Source: a virus. From it: DNA of 22,996 nucleotides. This document shows, one piece after another, positions 8,280-22,663 of this stretch. The first letter of the stretch is position 1, and every line of letters starts with the position of its first letter. Location: positions 1-22,996 of IMG/VR virus record IMGVR_UViG_3300022659_000101; one strand, written 5' to 3'. The notes under the pieces are model-generated. The model was given only the letters and a program-made list of their open reading frames with translations, was not told the origin of the DNA and did not search any database. A program made the translations under genes and the position numbers.

Positions 8280-8362
8280 ACGGGTGGGCGGAGCTTGACG
8301 GGTTGGAATACTGGGGAAACACCAGCGAGCCTTTCGGCTCCCCGCCAAGCCCGCCCATAACA
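8280..8362 (-). ncRNA. c4: C4-type antisense RNA upstream of antirepressor
   Basis: On the minus strand this segment folds as the C4 RNA family does (P1/P7 C4; Rfam C4). An outer stem joins 8351-8356 with 8286-8291 (GGGCGG/CCGCCC), and an inner GAGCC/GGCTC stem lies at 8327-8340. A single-stranded segment reads AGTATTCCAACCCGTCAAGC. Its CCAACCCG (8299-8306) is complementary to CGGGTTGG at 8265-8272, close to the antirepressor ribosome-binding site, and to most of GGGTTTGGAATC near 8427-8438. C4 RNAs are processed from the ant leader and block ant expression. Identification is by recalled motif and by fold, not by a covariance search. Confidence 0.7.
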
Positions 8363-17327: not shown

Positions 17328-17791
17328 ATGAACCGCGCCCAACGCCGACAAGCAGAACGCAATGACCGTCGTGGCATTGTTTACACGCCTAAAGTACTGC
17401 CCGTTCCTGCCATTTTTGACGAATTCAACGTGTTTGATTTTCCGCAAATGATGCTGCAAAAACTTGAAAACGGTGAGATTGAAGCCGTGCAAGGTACACC
17501 AGTTTTTACGATAACCACGGCGTAGTCACCGAAGTTGTGCCAGCGCTTGAAGGCTGGTTATTCACATGGCGCCGCATCAATGAAAAGCTAAACGGCAATT
17601 TAGATCTATCAGCACTTGAGCGCATCAACAACAAAATGCGTGTTGCCATGCTCATGACGCCAACCGAAGTGGTGAAAGCCAAAGTGTGCTTAGACCGTTT
17701 ACGCATGTTCTTTAGAACCGCAGATCGCAAAGCCATTTGCGAGATAGCAAAAACCGCACAAATTGCCATTTTGATGGAGGCTCACTCATGA
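17328..17791 (+). CDS. Conserved-looking phage protein (reconstructed across a frameshift)
   Basis: The frame from ATG 17328 (after GAGG) stops at 17525. One more T in the T5 run 17503-17507 gives VFYDNHGVVTEVVPALEGW and joins it smoothly to the downstream frame ending at 17791, for a 154-aa protein. It begins MNRAQRRQAERNDRRG, a motif I associate with small phage/plasmid proteins, and its C-terminal half is helical (LERINNKMRVAMLMTPTEVV). Its stop overlaps the next ATG (ATGA). Function unknown. Confidence 0.6.
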
Positions 17792-18433: not shown

Positions 18434-19048
18434 ATGAACGCACCACAACGGGCAGCACAATTAGTGATCGGCCAAGCAATGTTAGGCGGATTTTTCGCAG
18501 GCACATTCAGCTTAGATGGAATTGAACACGGCATTATCGTTTCACCTGCCATTAAAGGGCAGTTTGAAGACGTGCAATACCTGAAAGACGAAGATAACGC
18601 AGTTAAAGGCGCACTCTCATACTATGACGGGCTAGCCAATACCAACGCAATGGCCGAAGCTGGCAGCGAAATTTCCAAACAAGTACGCGCATTGGTGATT
18701 GACGACCATAACGACTGGTACATTCCAAGCCAAGACGAGCTTGAAATTATCTACCGCAACCTAAAACCAACTACTCGCGAAAACTGGCAATACGCACGCT
18801 CTGGCATCAATTTAAGTGCTGTACCACCCACTCGCCCATACACCGCAATTAACCCACTCCAAACCACGGTTGAAGCCTTTAAAGAAGGTGGCGATGAAGC
18901 CTTTATTGCCGCTGCTTATTGGAGTTCTACCCAGCACGCAGCTTACGCTGACTATGCCTGGTTTCAGGGCTTCGGCTTCGGCAATCAGCACTGCAGCCAC
19001 GAGTACGACAGCTTGCATGTCCGTGCAGTCCGCAGATTCGTTATTTAG
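18434..19048 (+). CDS. DGR target protein 1 (DUF1566/C-type-lectin-like fold, variable C-terminus)
   Basis: This 204-aa protein has AGGAGA 6 nt before its ATG. Residues about 100-204 show the DUF1566/Lcl pattern, a C-type-lectin-like fold: DWYIPSQDELEIIYRNL, AAYWSST, then the Trp/Gly-rich variable segment and the closing LHVRAVRR. The last 37 codons are variable region 1. Twelve codons differ from the template, giving F, G, H, C, S, E, Y and D at template Asn, Lys or Tyr positions. There is no signal peptide or membrane segment and no tail-fibre domain. The N-terminal half (GGFFAGTFSLDGIEHGIIVS) resembles a repeated beta-sandwich-like lead-in also seen in target 2. The binding partner is unknown. 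Confidence 0.9.
   Translation: MNAPQRAAQLVIGQAMLGGFFAGTFSLDGIEHGIIVSPAIKGQFEDVQYLKDEDNAVKGALSYYDGLANTNAMAEAGSEISKQVRALVIDDHNDWYIPSQDELEIIYRNLKPTTRENWQYARSGINLSAVPPTRPYTAINPLQTTVEAFKEGGDEAFIAAAYWSSTQHAAYADYAWFQGFGFGNQHCSHEYDSLHVRAVRRFVI
18933..19037 (+). repeat. DGR variable region VR1
   Basis: This aligns without gaps to the template repeat 20089-20193. There are 16 substitutions, all at positions where the template has A. The last about 30 bp (GCTTGCATGTCCGTGCAGTC...) match the template exactly and would hold the initiation-of-mutagenic-homing segment, next to the stop codon. Confidence 0.95.
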
Positions 19049-19093
19049 CCCTTTAACTATTTAGTTATTTTTTATTTCAAATCGGAGTACATC

Positions 19094-19525
19094 ATGAACC
19101 AAGCAGTCGATAAAACTGAATTAACGATTGACCCAGCAAACACCGCCAATGTTACTGGCATCTTGCTAAACACAAGCATCGTTTTAAGTGAAGGCGAACA
19201 ATGGGCGGGCATTTTGTTGGGCAAAAACGGTGAGCCCGACCAGCACATCATTTTATTGCCAGGCGAACCTGAAACAAGATTAAACCATGCCGATGCAACA
19301 GCATGGGCAATCGCACAAGGCGGTGAATTACCCACACGCCGCGAGCAATCATTACTGTTTGCTAACCTTAAAGAAGCGTTTAAAGAAGACTGGTATTGGT
19401 CCAGTGAAACGCACGCAGCTATCGCTGACTATGCCTGGTTTCAGGGCTTCGGCTACGGCGATCAGAGCAGCAACTACGAGCGCGGCAGCTTGCATGTCCG
19501 TGCAGTCCGCAGACAAGCTATTTAG
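19094..19525 (+). CDS. DGR target protein 2 (DUF1566-like, variable C-terminus)
   Basis: This 143-aa protein has GGAG 7 nt before its ATG. The N-terminal 60 residues form a beta-rich domain (AGILLGKNGEPDQHIILLPG). The Lcl/DUF1566 core follows: ATAWAIAQGGELPTRREQ, EDWYWSSETHAA, then the variable segment DYAWFQGFGYGDQ and the closing LHVRAVRR. Twelve codons differ from the template. Like target 1 it lacks a signal peptide. Target 2 is shorter and has a different lead-in, so the two genes are paralogous modules served by one template. Confidence 0.9.
   Translation: MNQAVDKTELTIDPANTANVTGILLNTSIVLSEGEQWAGILLGKNGEPDQHIILLPGEPETRLNHADATAWAIAQGGELPTRREQSLLFANLKEAFKEDWYWSSETHAAIADYAWFQGFGYGDQSSNYERGSLHVRAVRRQAI
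19411..19513 (+). repeat. DGR variable region VR2
   Basis: This aligns without gaps to template positions 20090-20192 with 16 substitutions, all at template A. Four substituted codons (TAT to TTT, two AAC to GGC, AAG to GAG) are identical to those in VR1. One AAC near the middle is unchanged. Confidence 0.95.
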
Positions 19526-19559
19526 TCATTTAGCAATTTAATTATTGTTTTTTATCAGC

Positions 19560-19919
19560 ATGGCTATCCACACCCAATTGCCAATCTATACGCAGGCTTA
19601 TCACCTGCTTGAAGTGATCACTAAGCTTACTAAAAATTTGCCTAGAGACTTCAAGCAATTGGTAGGCGCCAAGTTGCGCGATGAAATATTCAACATTTGC
19701 ATACTCATTTTTAGAGCCAATGTAAATCGCGATAAATTACCGCACATCAATAGCTTAATAGAGCGCTTACAAGTCGCAGAATTAACCATCAGACTTGCAC
19801 GCGATATGCGCATGATCTCAATTCCGCAATACGCAGAAGTGATTGAGATTACGACCAGCATCGGCAAACAGGCGACTGGATGGCGCAATTCGCAACAACG
19901 CCCGCTTCATGGTAGTTAA
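19560..19919 (+). CDS. avd: DGR accessory variability determinant (Avd-like four-helix bundle)
   Basis: This 119-aa basic, all-helical protein has the Avd/S23-like pattern: PIYTQAYHLLEVITKLTKNLPR, then DFKQLVGAKLRDEIFNICIL, LIERLQVAELTIRLARDM, and EVIEITTSIGKQATGW. In characterised DGRs Avd forms a pentamer with a basic pore, binds the template RNA and RT, and is required for mutagenic cDNA synthesis. The start at 19560 follows the VR2 gene by 35 bp; an in-frame non-ATG start slightly upstream is less likely. It lies between the targets and the template, as in Bordetella phage BPP-1. Confidence 0.87.
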   Translation: MAIHTQLPIYTQAYHLLEVITKLTKNLPRDFKQLVGAKLRDEIFNICILIFRANVNRDKLPHINSLIERLQVAELTIRLARDMRMISIPQYAEVIEITTSIGKQATGWRNSQQRPLHGS

Positions 19920-20088
19920 GGCCATCATGACTGAGCGATATTTGAATCTGGTTGTGCCGCTAGCTCAAAAGGCTACCGCCATGCGCAAAATAGATACCAC
20001 TGATAGCCATCAGGCAAGGTCTAGCGCAGTTTCTTTGCTGACTGACAACAGTCTTCAGTTTAGCGACGTAGATAGCACAATTAAGCAC

Positions 20089-20193
20089 AGCACGCAGCTA
20101 ACGCTGACTATGCCTGGTATCAGAACTTCAACAACGGCAATCAGAACAACAACAACAAGAACAACAGCTTGCATGTCCGTGCAGTCCGCAGAT
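20089..20193 (+). repeat. DGR template repeat (TR)
   Basis: This 105-bp template matches VR1 and VR2 except at adenines. Read in the VR frame it is packed with Asn codons (ten AAC, one AAT) plus one AAG in the diversified segment, e.g. CAGAACAACAACAACAAGAA, the hallmark that lets A-mutagenesis reach many residues without stops. It lies about 170 bp after avd and directly before the RT. The transcribed spacer from 19920 is probably part of the DGR RNA bound by Avd/RT. Confidence 0.95.
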
Positions 20194-21314
20194 CCATCAT
20201 TGCTCCACCATGCTGACTTTACCTTTGCAGAACTTACGCAAGCTTATTTTGATTGTAGGAAATCAAAGCGCAACACTGCCAGCGCCTTAGCTTTTGAGCA
20301 AGATTTAGAGGCGAATTTACGCGATTTATACGATGAATTAATCGACGGCACATACGCACCAGGCAAATCAATCTGCTTTGTGATTACGCGCCCAAAACCA
20401 CGCGAAGTGTGGGCGGCTGACTTTCGTGATCGTATCGTGCATCATCTATTTTATAACCGTGTTTCACCTCGGTTTTATGCAGCCTTTATTGCCGACAGTT
20501 GCGCCTGCATACCAGGCCGTGGCACTTTATATGCTGCAAAACGCTTAGAAAGCAAAATACGCAGCATTACTCAGAACTGGCAAAAGCCAGCGTATTACTT
20601 GAAGTGTGATTTAGCCAACTTCTTTGTGGCCATCAATAAAGACATTGTTTACGACCTCATTCAAAAGCGCGTATCAGAGCCTTGGTTGCTATGGTTAGCC
20701 GCCACTATTCTATACCACGACCCGCGCCAAAACTTTGAGTTACGTGGGCAAGCACATTTGCAAAACCTAGTGCCAGCGCACAAACGCCTGGTCAACCATG
20801 ACAACACCAACGGACTGCCAATTGGCAATTTATCATCGCAGTTTTTTGCGAATATTTACCTTAACGAGCTGGACCAATACATTAAGCATCAAATAGGCGC
20901 TAAGTATTACATCCGCTATGTGGACGACTTCATTCTGCTGCATGACTCACCACAGTGGCTCAATGAAGCGCTAGAAGCCATTAACGCATTCTTACCCGCC
21001 ACACTCAAAGCCAATTTAAACCCTAAAAAACCATCCTGCAGCCGGTTGATCGTGGCGTGGATTTTGTGGGGCAAGTGATTAAACCTTGGCACAGATACAC
21101 CCGCAAACGCACCATAAACGAAGCTATGCGCCAAGTACAGAACGCTAAAGAAAACGAAGTATTTGAAAAAGCCAACAGCTACTTCGGCTTAATTGGCCAA
21201 GCATCAAGCAGCCATCACGACCAATGCAAATTAGCCAATGTGCTACGCAAGCGTGGCAGAACCATCAATCAAAAAATTAGTAAGACTTATAGAAGCAGTA
21301 AAGAAAATGTTTAA
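20173..21314 (+). CDS. DGR-type reverse transcriptase (reconstructed across a frameshift)
   Basis: This is a group II-intron-related RT of retroelement class DGR. Visible motifs are KSICFVITRPKPREVWAADF and RDRIVHHLFYN (motif 1/2), YLKCDLANFFVAIN (motif 3/A), the DGR signature GLPIGNLSSQFFANIYLNEL, and the catalytic YIRYVDDFILL. The first frame stops at 21078. One extra A in the A6 run 21025-21030 restores NPKKTILQPVDRGVDFVGQ and a C-terminus ending at 21314, about 380 aa in all. The start is uncertain: ATG 20173 lies inside the template's 3' end; TTG 20200, or ATG 19927 reading through the template, are alternatives. The end overlaps excisionase by 8 bp. Confidence 0.88.
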
Positions 21315-21594: not shown

Positions 21595-22663
21595 CAAATC
21601 ACTTAGGCGCAATTCTTGACGCTATTGATAAAGATATTTTTGATTACGCCACCACATTTCCAAACTCTCCACGCAGGCTACTATTTATAGAGCGACAAGG
21701 CGATGCGTTACTTGTAGAAAAATATTTAGATGATTGGTTGCTTGCCAAAACTAAACAAATCAAGCATTCAACCTTACAAGGCTATACCAAGATTATCAAC
21801 AACCTGATCATCCCTGAATTTAAAGGTACTGTGCTTAGTGAACTAAAGCGACCCACAATTCGTAAATGGTTGGCTGAGATGAAATGCGGCAATAAGCGCC
21901 TTACAAACATTCAAAGCGTATTGCGAACAGCACTACAAGATGCAGTAGATGATGAGATTTTAGAAACTAACCCACTCTATGGCTGGAAATACGAAAACAA
22001 AGGCATTCCAAAGCCAGATGACGATGTTGCCCCATTCTCAGCTGATGAACAGGATTTAATATTAAATAAACTGGAAGGGCAAAACCGCAACATTTACCAA
22101 TTATTTTTTGGACTGGTCTAAGAACAAGTGAAATGATTGCACTACAGTGGGCGGATATTGATTGGCTGCGTGGTGAGATTGATGTAAATAAGGCAATGAC
22201 TCAAGCATCAGATGAATTTGAAGAGCCTAAAACTAAAGCTGGCCGACGCAAAGTCAAAATATTAGCACCTGCAATGGAAGCGCTACTCAGCCAAAAACAA
22301 TATACCTTTTTACAAAATAAAGAGATATTCCAAAACCCAATAACGCAAGAACCTTGGAATGGTGACGCAAGCCTTAGAAAAACAGTATGGCAGCCAGCTT
22401 TAAAACGAGCAAATGTCAGATATCGTCGTCCATATCAAACTCGTCATACCTATGCCAGCATGATGCTAACAGCGGGAGAATCTATTGCTTGGTTAGCACA
22501 GCAAATGGGCCATGCTGATTGGGCAAGTTTAAGAAAAACTTATGCTAAATATATTAAAGACTCAATACCAGACGCAGGTGAAAAGGCCGTTAAAATGTTT
22601 AGCAAAAATGCTGTCAAAAAAGCTGCCATATCAGCCCCAAACCAACCAAAAAAACAGGCATAA
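21465..22663 (+). CDS. int: Tyrosine-recombinase integrase (reconstructed across a frameshift)
   Basis: This protein is about 399 aa. Residues 1-70 form an arm-DNA-binding domain (DUF3596-like: ASETSYQIAFTYKGVRCRER), followed by a core-binding SAM-like domain (HSTLQGYTKIINNLIIPEF) and the catalytic domain. The first frame stops at 22121. A seventh T in the T6 run 22104-22109 restores FFWTGLRTSEMIALQW with the box I Arg. Further catalytic residues are Lys in KTKAGRRKV, Arg/His in YQTRHTYASM, His in GHADW, and the Tyr nucleophile in LRKTYAKYI. It inserts the phage into the tmRNA gene 46 bp away. Confidence 0.9.

Follow-up and report, generated by a model that had tools for sequence, protein, structure and literature searches.

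A two-target phage diversity-generating retroelement with a structured RNA placed 5' of its template repeat

The virus fragment IMGVR_UViG_3300022659_000101, analysed over its whole length of 22,996 bases and here called the window, carries a diversity-generating retroelement (DGR) on its plus strand. Its minus strand encodes capsid, portal and terminase genes (Pfam/PHROGs), and a CI-like repressor and an integrase are also present. Rfam searches located two further RNAs on the minus strand, namely a C4 antisense RNA, which is a phage antirepressor control RNA (RF01695, 65.5 bits; 8280-8362), and a tmRNA gene that is cut off at the right contig end (22710-22996). This tmRNA gene is the probable attachment site of the integrase; truncated as it is, and taken with the repressor, the integrase and the virion genes, it makes the window look like a prophage in ssrA. 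In seven relatives, the genes next to the cassette were most often integrases and repressors, with tail genes present too, and these neighbours revealed no clear tie of the cassette to any one gene module.

The cassette begins with two target genes. Target gene 1 (18434..19048, 204 amino acids) has a lectin-like Lcl_C C-terminus that includes the first variable repeat, VR1 (Pfam PF07603, E = 6.5e-12). Target gene 2 (19094..19525, 143 amino acids) ends in an Lcl_C-like C-terminus with VR2, which resembles that of target 1 and matches PF07603 with E = 3e-6, below the curated cut-off. A fold search with a weak predicted model of target 1 returned no match. The accessory variability determinant gene, avd, follows (19560..19919, 119 amino acids; bAvd PF22296, E = 9.6e-12; phrog_3206 Avd, E = 5e-27), and after it come the template repeat (TR) and the reverse transcriptase (RT) gene. 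Repeats and Pfam/PHROGs matches together reproduce the order target 1, target 2, avd, TR, RT given in the initial annotation of this DNA.

Three copies of one sequence start at 18934, 19411 and 20090, and correspond to VR1 (18934-19036), VR2 (19411-19513) and the 103-nt TR (20090-20192). Alignment of each VR to TR over 103 positions gave 16 differences for VR1 and 16 for VR2; all 32 of these fall at a template A and none elsewhere, in agreement with the counts first reported. Changes at non-A template positions, which the annotation had named as counter-evidence, were looked for in both VRs, and none was present. Given that 36 of the 103 TR bases are A, the chance of 16 of 16 differences falling at A is ~3e-9 per VR. 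Eleven TR adenines are altered in both VR1 and VR2, and at 9 of these 11 the new base is the same. Family-wide, the new base is shared in 156 of 345 cases (45%; 48 VR pairs), compared with 38% expected from composition. The 9 of 11 in the window may thus reflect one VR having been copied into the other.

Two members of the family from different samples, L005 and L039, which form the closest comparable phage pair, captured diversification in progress. They are near-identical over ~8.6 kb, with an identical TR and ~4 other differences, and their two VRs together differ at 37 positions, 36 of them at a template A. Such VR differences at A alongside a fixed TR indicate that both targets are being diversified in the family. 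Together with the A-only differences of the window, they uphold the view that adenine-specific retrohoming has acted on both targets. At least two VRs were found in 42 of 50 loci, so that a two-target cassette is the family rule. The single template with two lectin-like targets, highlighted initially as making this prophage a good system for study, is present here with two Lcl_C targets; having two targets for one template is usual in the family and does not set this phage apart.

The RT catalytic domain starts at 20200 and its N-terminal part runs to a frame break (20200..21078; RVT_1 PF00078, E = 6e-15; phrog_1423), beyond which the C-terminal part continues in a shifted frame (21057..21314; 54% identity to the same part of the RT of relative L009). 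A one-base loss within six consecutive A (~21025-21030) breaks the frame. The retroelement, earlier called complete, is thus whole in its list of parts and frameshifted in its RT as assembled. Two further genes share this fault, the integrase at 22100-22107 and an early ORF at 17505-17511, each being split where a T run is one base short. Three single-base homopolymer losses within 23 kb point to sequencing error, which is the likely source of the frame breaks. The RT carries the motif IGNLSSQ where QGxxxSP is usual for the RT family, and its nearest solved structures are entries 8ub7-8ube, those of the BPP-1 DGR RT. Judged by its sequence, the window RT belongs to the DGR group and is broken as assembled, whereas the family, judged by its VRs, is active in nature.

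Between avd and TR lies the structured RNA RT-15 (Rfam RF03018; 19896-20087, plus strand), which starts inside avd and ends two bases before TR. Scoring 165 bits where the gathering cut-off is 82, the copy in the window is a full-length member with a conserved fold. Of 52 proteobacterial-type relatives, 50 have RT-15 immediately 5' of TR. It is missing from L033, whose contig begins inside RT, and from L043. In L043 (9740-10001), RT and TR are present without RT-15, and the sequence ahead of TR looks like a target gene; it is as if a VR-TR recombination had deleted avd and RT-15. We also searched from the RNA side in 797 genomes (399 + 398). All matches above the cut-off lay beside a same-strand DGR-type RT, whereas no RT accompanied the three weaker ones. 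Every forward-strand match above the cut-off also proved to have TR and VRs; the four reverse-strand ones were checked for RT and for helix P0 (described below) only. By Rfam scan, RT-15 is absent from BPP-1 and from the Bacteroidales relatives (four of L051-L057 scanned).

Covariation supported the RT-15 fold. Across 40 relatives, 93.3% of cells were paired, and two-sided changes occurred at 40 of 56 pairs. Cells with two-sided changes numbered 273 in these relatives, versus 73 after shuffling and no more than 72 in controls with slid partners, although the loci share kinship, so that such shuffle-based counts overstate significance, an objection answered in part by the tree count and VR-flank control given below for P0.

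Folding 25 loci to a consensus over RT-15, TR and a further ~55 nt revealed that an otherwise single-stranded stretch of RT-15 pairs with the 3' end of TR. The resulting helix, P0, falls outside the Rfam RT-15 model, which ends before TR. Its 5' strand, UG-A-AUCUG with the A unpaired, lies within RT-15 (19943..19950; RNAalifold and pair counts in 52 loci), and its 3' strand, CAGAU-C-CA, spans the TR 3' end (20189..20196; pair counts in the same 52 loci). Seven pairs flank a common A-C mismatch, with the consensus 5'-NN-x-AUCUG facing CAGAU-x-NN. At the two outer positions, pairing is standard in 96% and 90% of the 52 loci versus 45% and 60% after shuffling, counts in which L048 and L072 are mis-registered; both were left out of the tree count and the VR-flank control. 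The first pair is UA in 24 loci, GC in 17 and CG in 8 of the 52. On the RT tree this pair changed 10 times and each of its bases alone also changed 10 times, so the two sides change together. Compared with the VR flanks of the same loci, pairing was 98 versus 72% and 90 versus 39%, a control that is partial because five P0 pairs also form with VR. The AUCUG side is invariant, and that half of P0 is therefore backed by complementarity alone. A 5-nt chance match was considered as the origin of P0 and was overturned by the 25-sequence consensus fold and the pair counts. Directly after the 5' strand, G19951 is the same base in 40 of 40 aligned relatives.

The RT frame itself runs without a stop through RT-15 and TR (ORF scan, 19843..21078), with in-frame ATGs at 19909, 19927 and 19981. 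From the avd stop to the RT domain, 32 non-redundant loci (3,056 codons) contain 1 stop in the RT frame versus 117 and 119 in the other frames. In most relatives, the open RT frame covers TR and no less than the second half of RT-15, and most loci are missing a start codon near the RT domain. The ATG at 19981, which lies within RT-15 in CCGCCATGCGC and has AAGG upstream, is a likely start of the window RT; in the deposited record of Burkholderia phage Magia, the RT begins at this ATG too. Exceptions occur. In several loci the frame meets a stop within the first half of RT-15, and a clade (L020, L022, L023, L025, L034 and L047) has an ATG just before the RT domain while keeping RT-15 and P0. 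RT translation through TR is not universal.

Two side observations concern the placement of this frame. In L006 (9718-9989), a ~90-amino-acid ORF of unknown function lies exactly between TR and RT, and the RT has its own ATG. In the Bacteroidales relatives L051-L057, TR is inside the RT ORF too, but in another frame, being read in the VR frame; the four loci scanned among them had no Rfam match upstream of RT.

The N-terminal RT extension encoded by RT-15 and TR is predicted to be disordered (AlphaFold, pLDDT ~26). Its divergence at the three codon positions is 0.28/0.31/0.37, versus ~0.25/0.20/0.54 in the RT domain. With the extension unfolded and its codon positions diverging almost equally, it is the RNA that is conserved. 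Peptide function as the main constraint on the extension was ruled out by the near-equal codon-position divergence, the pLDDT of ~26 and the later RT starts of some loci.

Synonymous codons distinguished the two sides of TR. Where two of 32 loci encode the same amino acid, the codons are identical in ~0.57-0.80 of pairs in the RT-15 extension, 0.79 in TR and ~0.5 after TR. No RNA-level conservation was detected 3' of TR by this measure in the 32 loci, and the fall to ~0.5 indicates that the RT coding sequence conceals no conserved RNA. A hidden 3' spacer within that sequence was accordingly rejected for want of excess synonymous conservation. TR ends 8 nt before the start of the RT domain, and no structured 3' spacer of the BPP-1 type is found there. 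In L006, RT-15 still touches TR even though the extra ORF parts TR from RT. The locus does have a retron-like feature, a folded RNA on the 5' side that a helix ties to the template 3' end, which is a likeness of working only.

Divergence at template adenines in the two VRs, the fold of RT-15, P0, the loss of conservation after TR and the RT frame through TR, all read from sequence, make one explanation very probable in our judgement: the locus is a two-target phage DGR whose template RNA would consist of RT-15, TR and ~4 nt, closed by P0. The RT-Avd complex would bind the folded RT-15 (~190 nt), and P0 may hold the TR 3' end at the active site. Synthesis of cDNA would start near GTCCG at the TR 3' end, from an internal RNA base; G19951, beside P0, would face the template start and is our guess for that base. 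The RT would copy TR toward the TR 5' end, misreading A, and would stop at RT-15, after which the cDNA would replace VR1 or VR2. Priming would be internal as in BPP-1, yet the domain responsible would lie ahead of the template, as it does in retrons. A stop imposed by RT-15 at the TR 5' end would agree with BPP-1, in which synthesis halts at the end of avd (PMC12875486). One RNA cannot be a folded template and a translated RT at once, so RT-15 may limit RT synthesis. The more specific proposal, that this DGR family primes mutagenic cDNA the retron way, through P0 and an internal RT-15 base, with folding and RT translation mutually exclusive, is one that we put forward tentatively, as a serious possibility.

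Other explanations assign RT-15 a lesser part. In an ordinary BPP-1-type DGR, RT-15 would only regulate avd and RT translation, and the primer RNA would lie 3' of TR in the RT coding sequence. The avd stop indeed falls inside RT-15, as do likely RT start sites, and BPP-1 primes from a 3' spacer (PMC12875486). We nevertheless consider this quite improbable, since synonymous conservation past TR is not in excess, and P0, which covaries, ties RT-15 to the TR 3' end, not to the RT start. Moreover, RT-15 stays at TR in L006 despite the intervening ORF, and the loci with later RT starts still have RT-15 and P0. The contact of P0 with the TR 3' end, where cDNA would begin, is also what makes it unlikely that RT-15 is mainly a stop signal at the TR 5' end while a separate RNA or a protein primes, as a pure stop signal would have no need of such a helix. 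That role does have a precedent in BPP-1, in which a motif at the avd 3' end, on the same side of TR as RT-15, terminates cDNA (PMC12875486), and protein priming occurs in other RTs (DRT10, PMC12632851).

A different doubt concerns the window copy, whose RT is broken as assembled. Were the frameshift real, this copy would be a dead relic that no longer diversifies, and PMC3521204 describes DGRs with a frameshifted RT and intact VR and TR. We give this reading a small chance: the VRs hold no non-A change, RT-15 and P0 are intact, and the same fault, a homopolymer short of one base, splits the integrase and a third ORF, as expected of sequencing error.

Taking the two-target DGR with a P0-closed template RNA as the preferred reading, the DGR itself is of known type, and for the RNA layout suggested by these sequences, with a folded part 5' of TR and inside the RT gene, we found no account. 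The RT-15 family was reportedly described by Weinberg et al. in 2017, and RT-15 appears as an unexplained misc_RNA beside RT in some phage records. No paper naming RT-15 RNA or its DGR layout was found in the literature covered, which excludes the original RT-15 description, the BPP-1 cryo-EM paper and the 2018 DGR survey, so that earlier recognition is possible. Detailed knowledge of how DGRs work comes from a single phage, BPP-1, whose recruiting and priming RNA trails the template; a reverse layout backed by covariation shows that a trailing RNA is not a fixed feature of DGRs. The Rfam family RT-15 would thereby gain a function, and a layout common to retrons is pointed to. Retron-way priming, if true, would link the RNA logic of DGRs and retrons. 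In addition, RT-15 with P0 provides a search key, and the compact template RNA is a possible tool for targeted mutagenesis.

The window DGR and that of BPP-1 are alike in Avd, TR, a DGR-type RT, adenine-specific transfer from TR to VR and the order target, avd, TR, RT. In BPP-1, TR stands directly at avd and a 144-nt spacer precedes brt, whereas the window family has ~190 nt of folded RNA before TR. According to PMC12875486, that spacer folds, brings in the enzyme and primes, and a trailing structured RNA also appears in PMC8867640. Unlike BPP-1, the window has its TR in the RT frame, nothing conserved 3' of it, and targets with Lcl_C instead of Mtd. Schillinger et al. 2012 (PMC3521204) likewise set apart DGRs whose TR overlaps the annotated RT ORF, as structural group 3, and the window has its TR early in that ORF; in the passages covered, the class is defined from annotation, with no mention of a structured RNA or of P0. 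Retrons have a structured RNA ahead of the template and prime from an internal guanosine (PMC8867640). The window cassette shares with them the order of structured RNA, template and RT in one transcript and a helix that joins the ends of the template RNA, a likeness known from sequence alone. In contrast to retrons, its RT is of the DGR type and is accompanied by Avd, TR/VR pairs and mutagenesis, and on the strength of that RT, Avd and TR/VR we class the cassette as a DGR and not as a retron.
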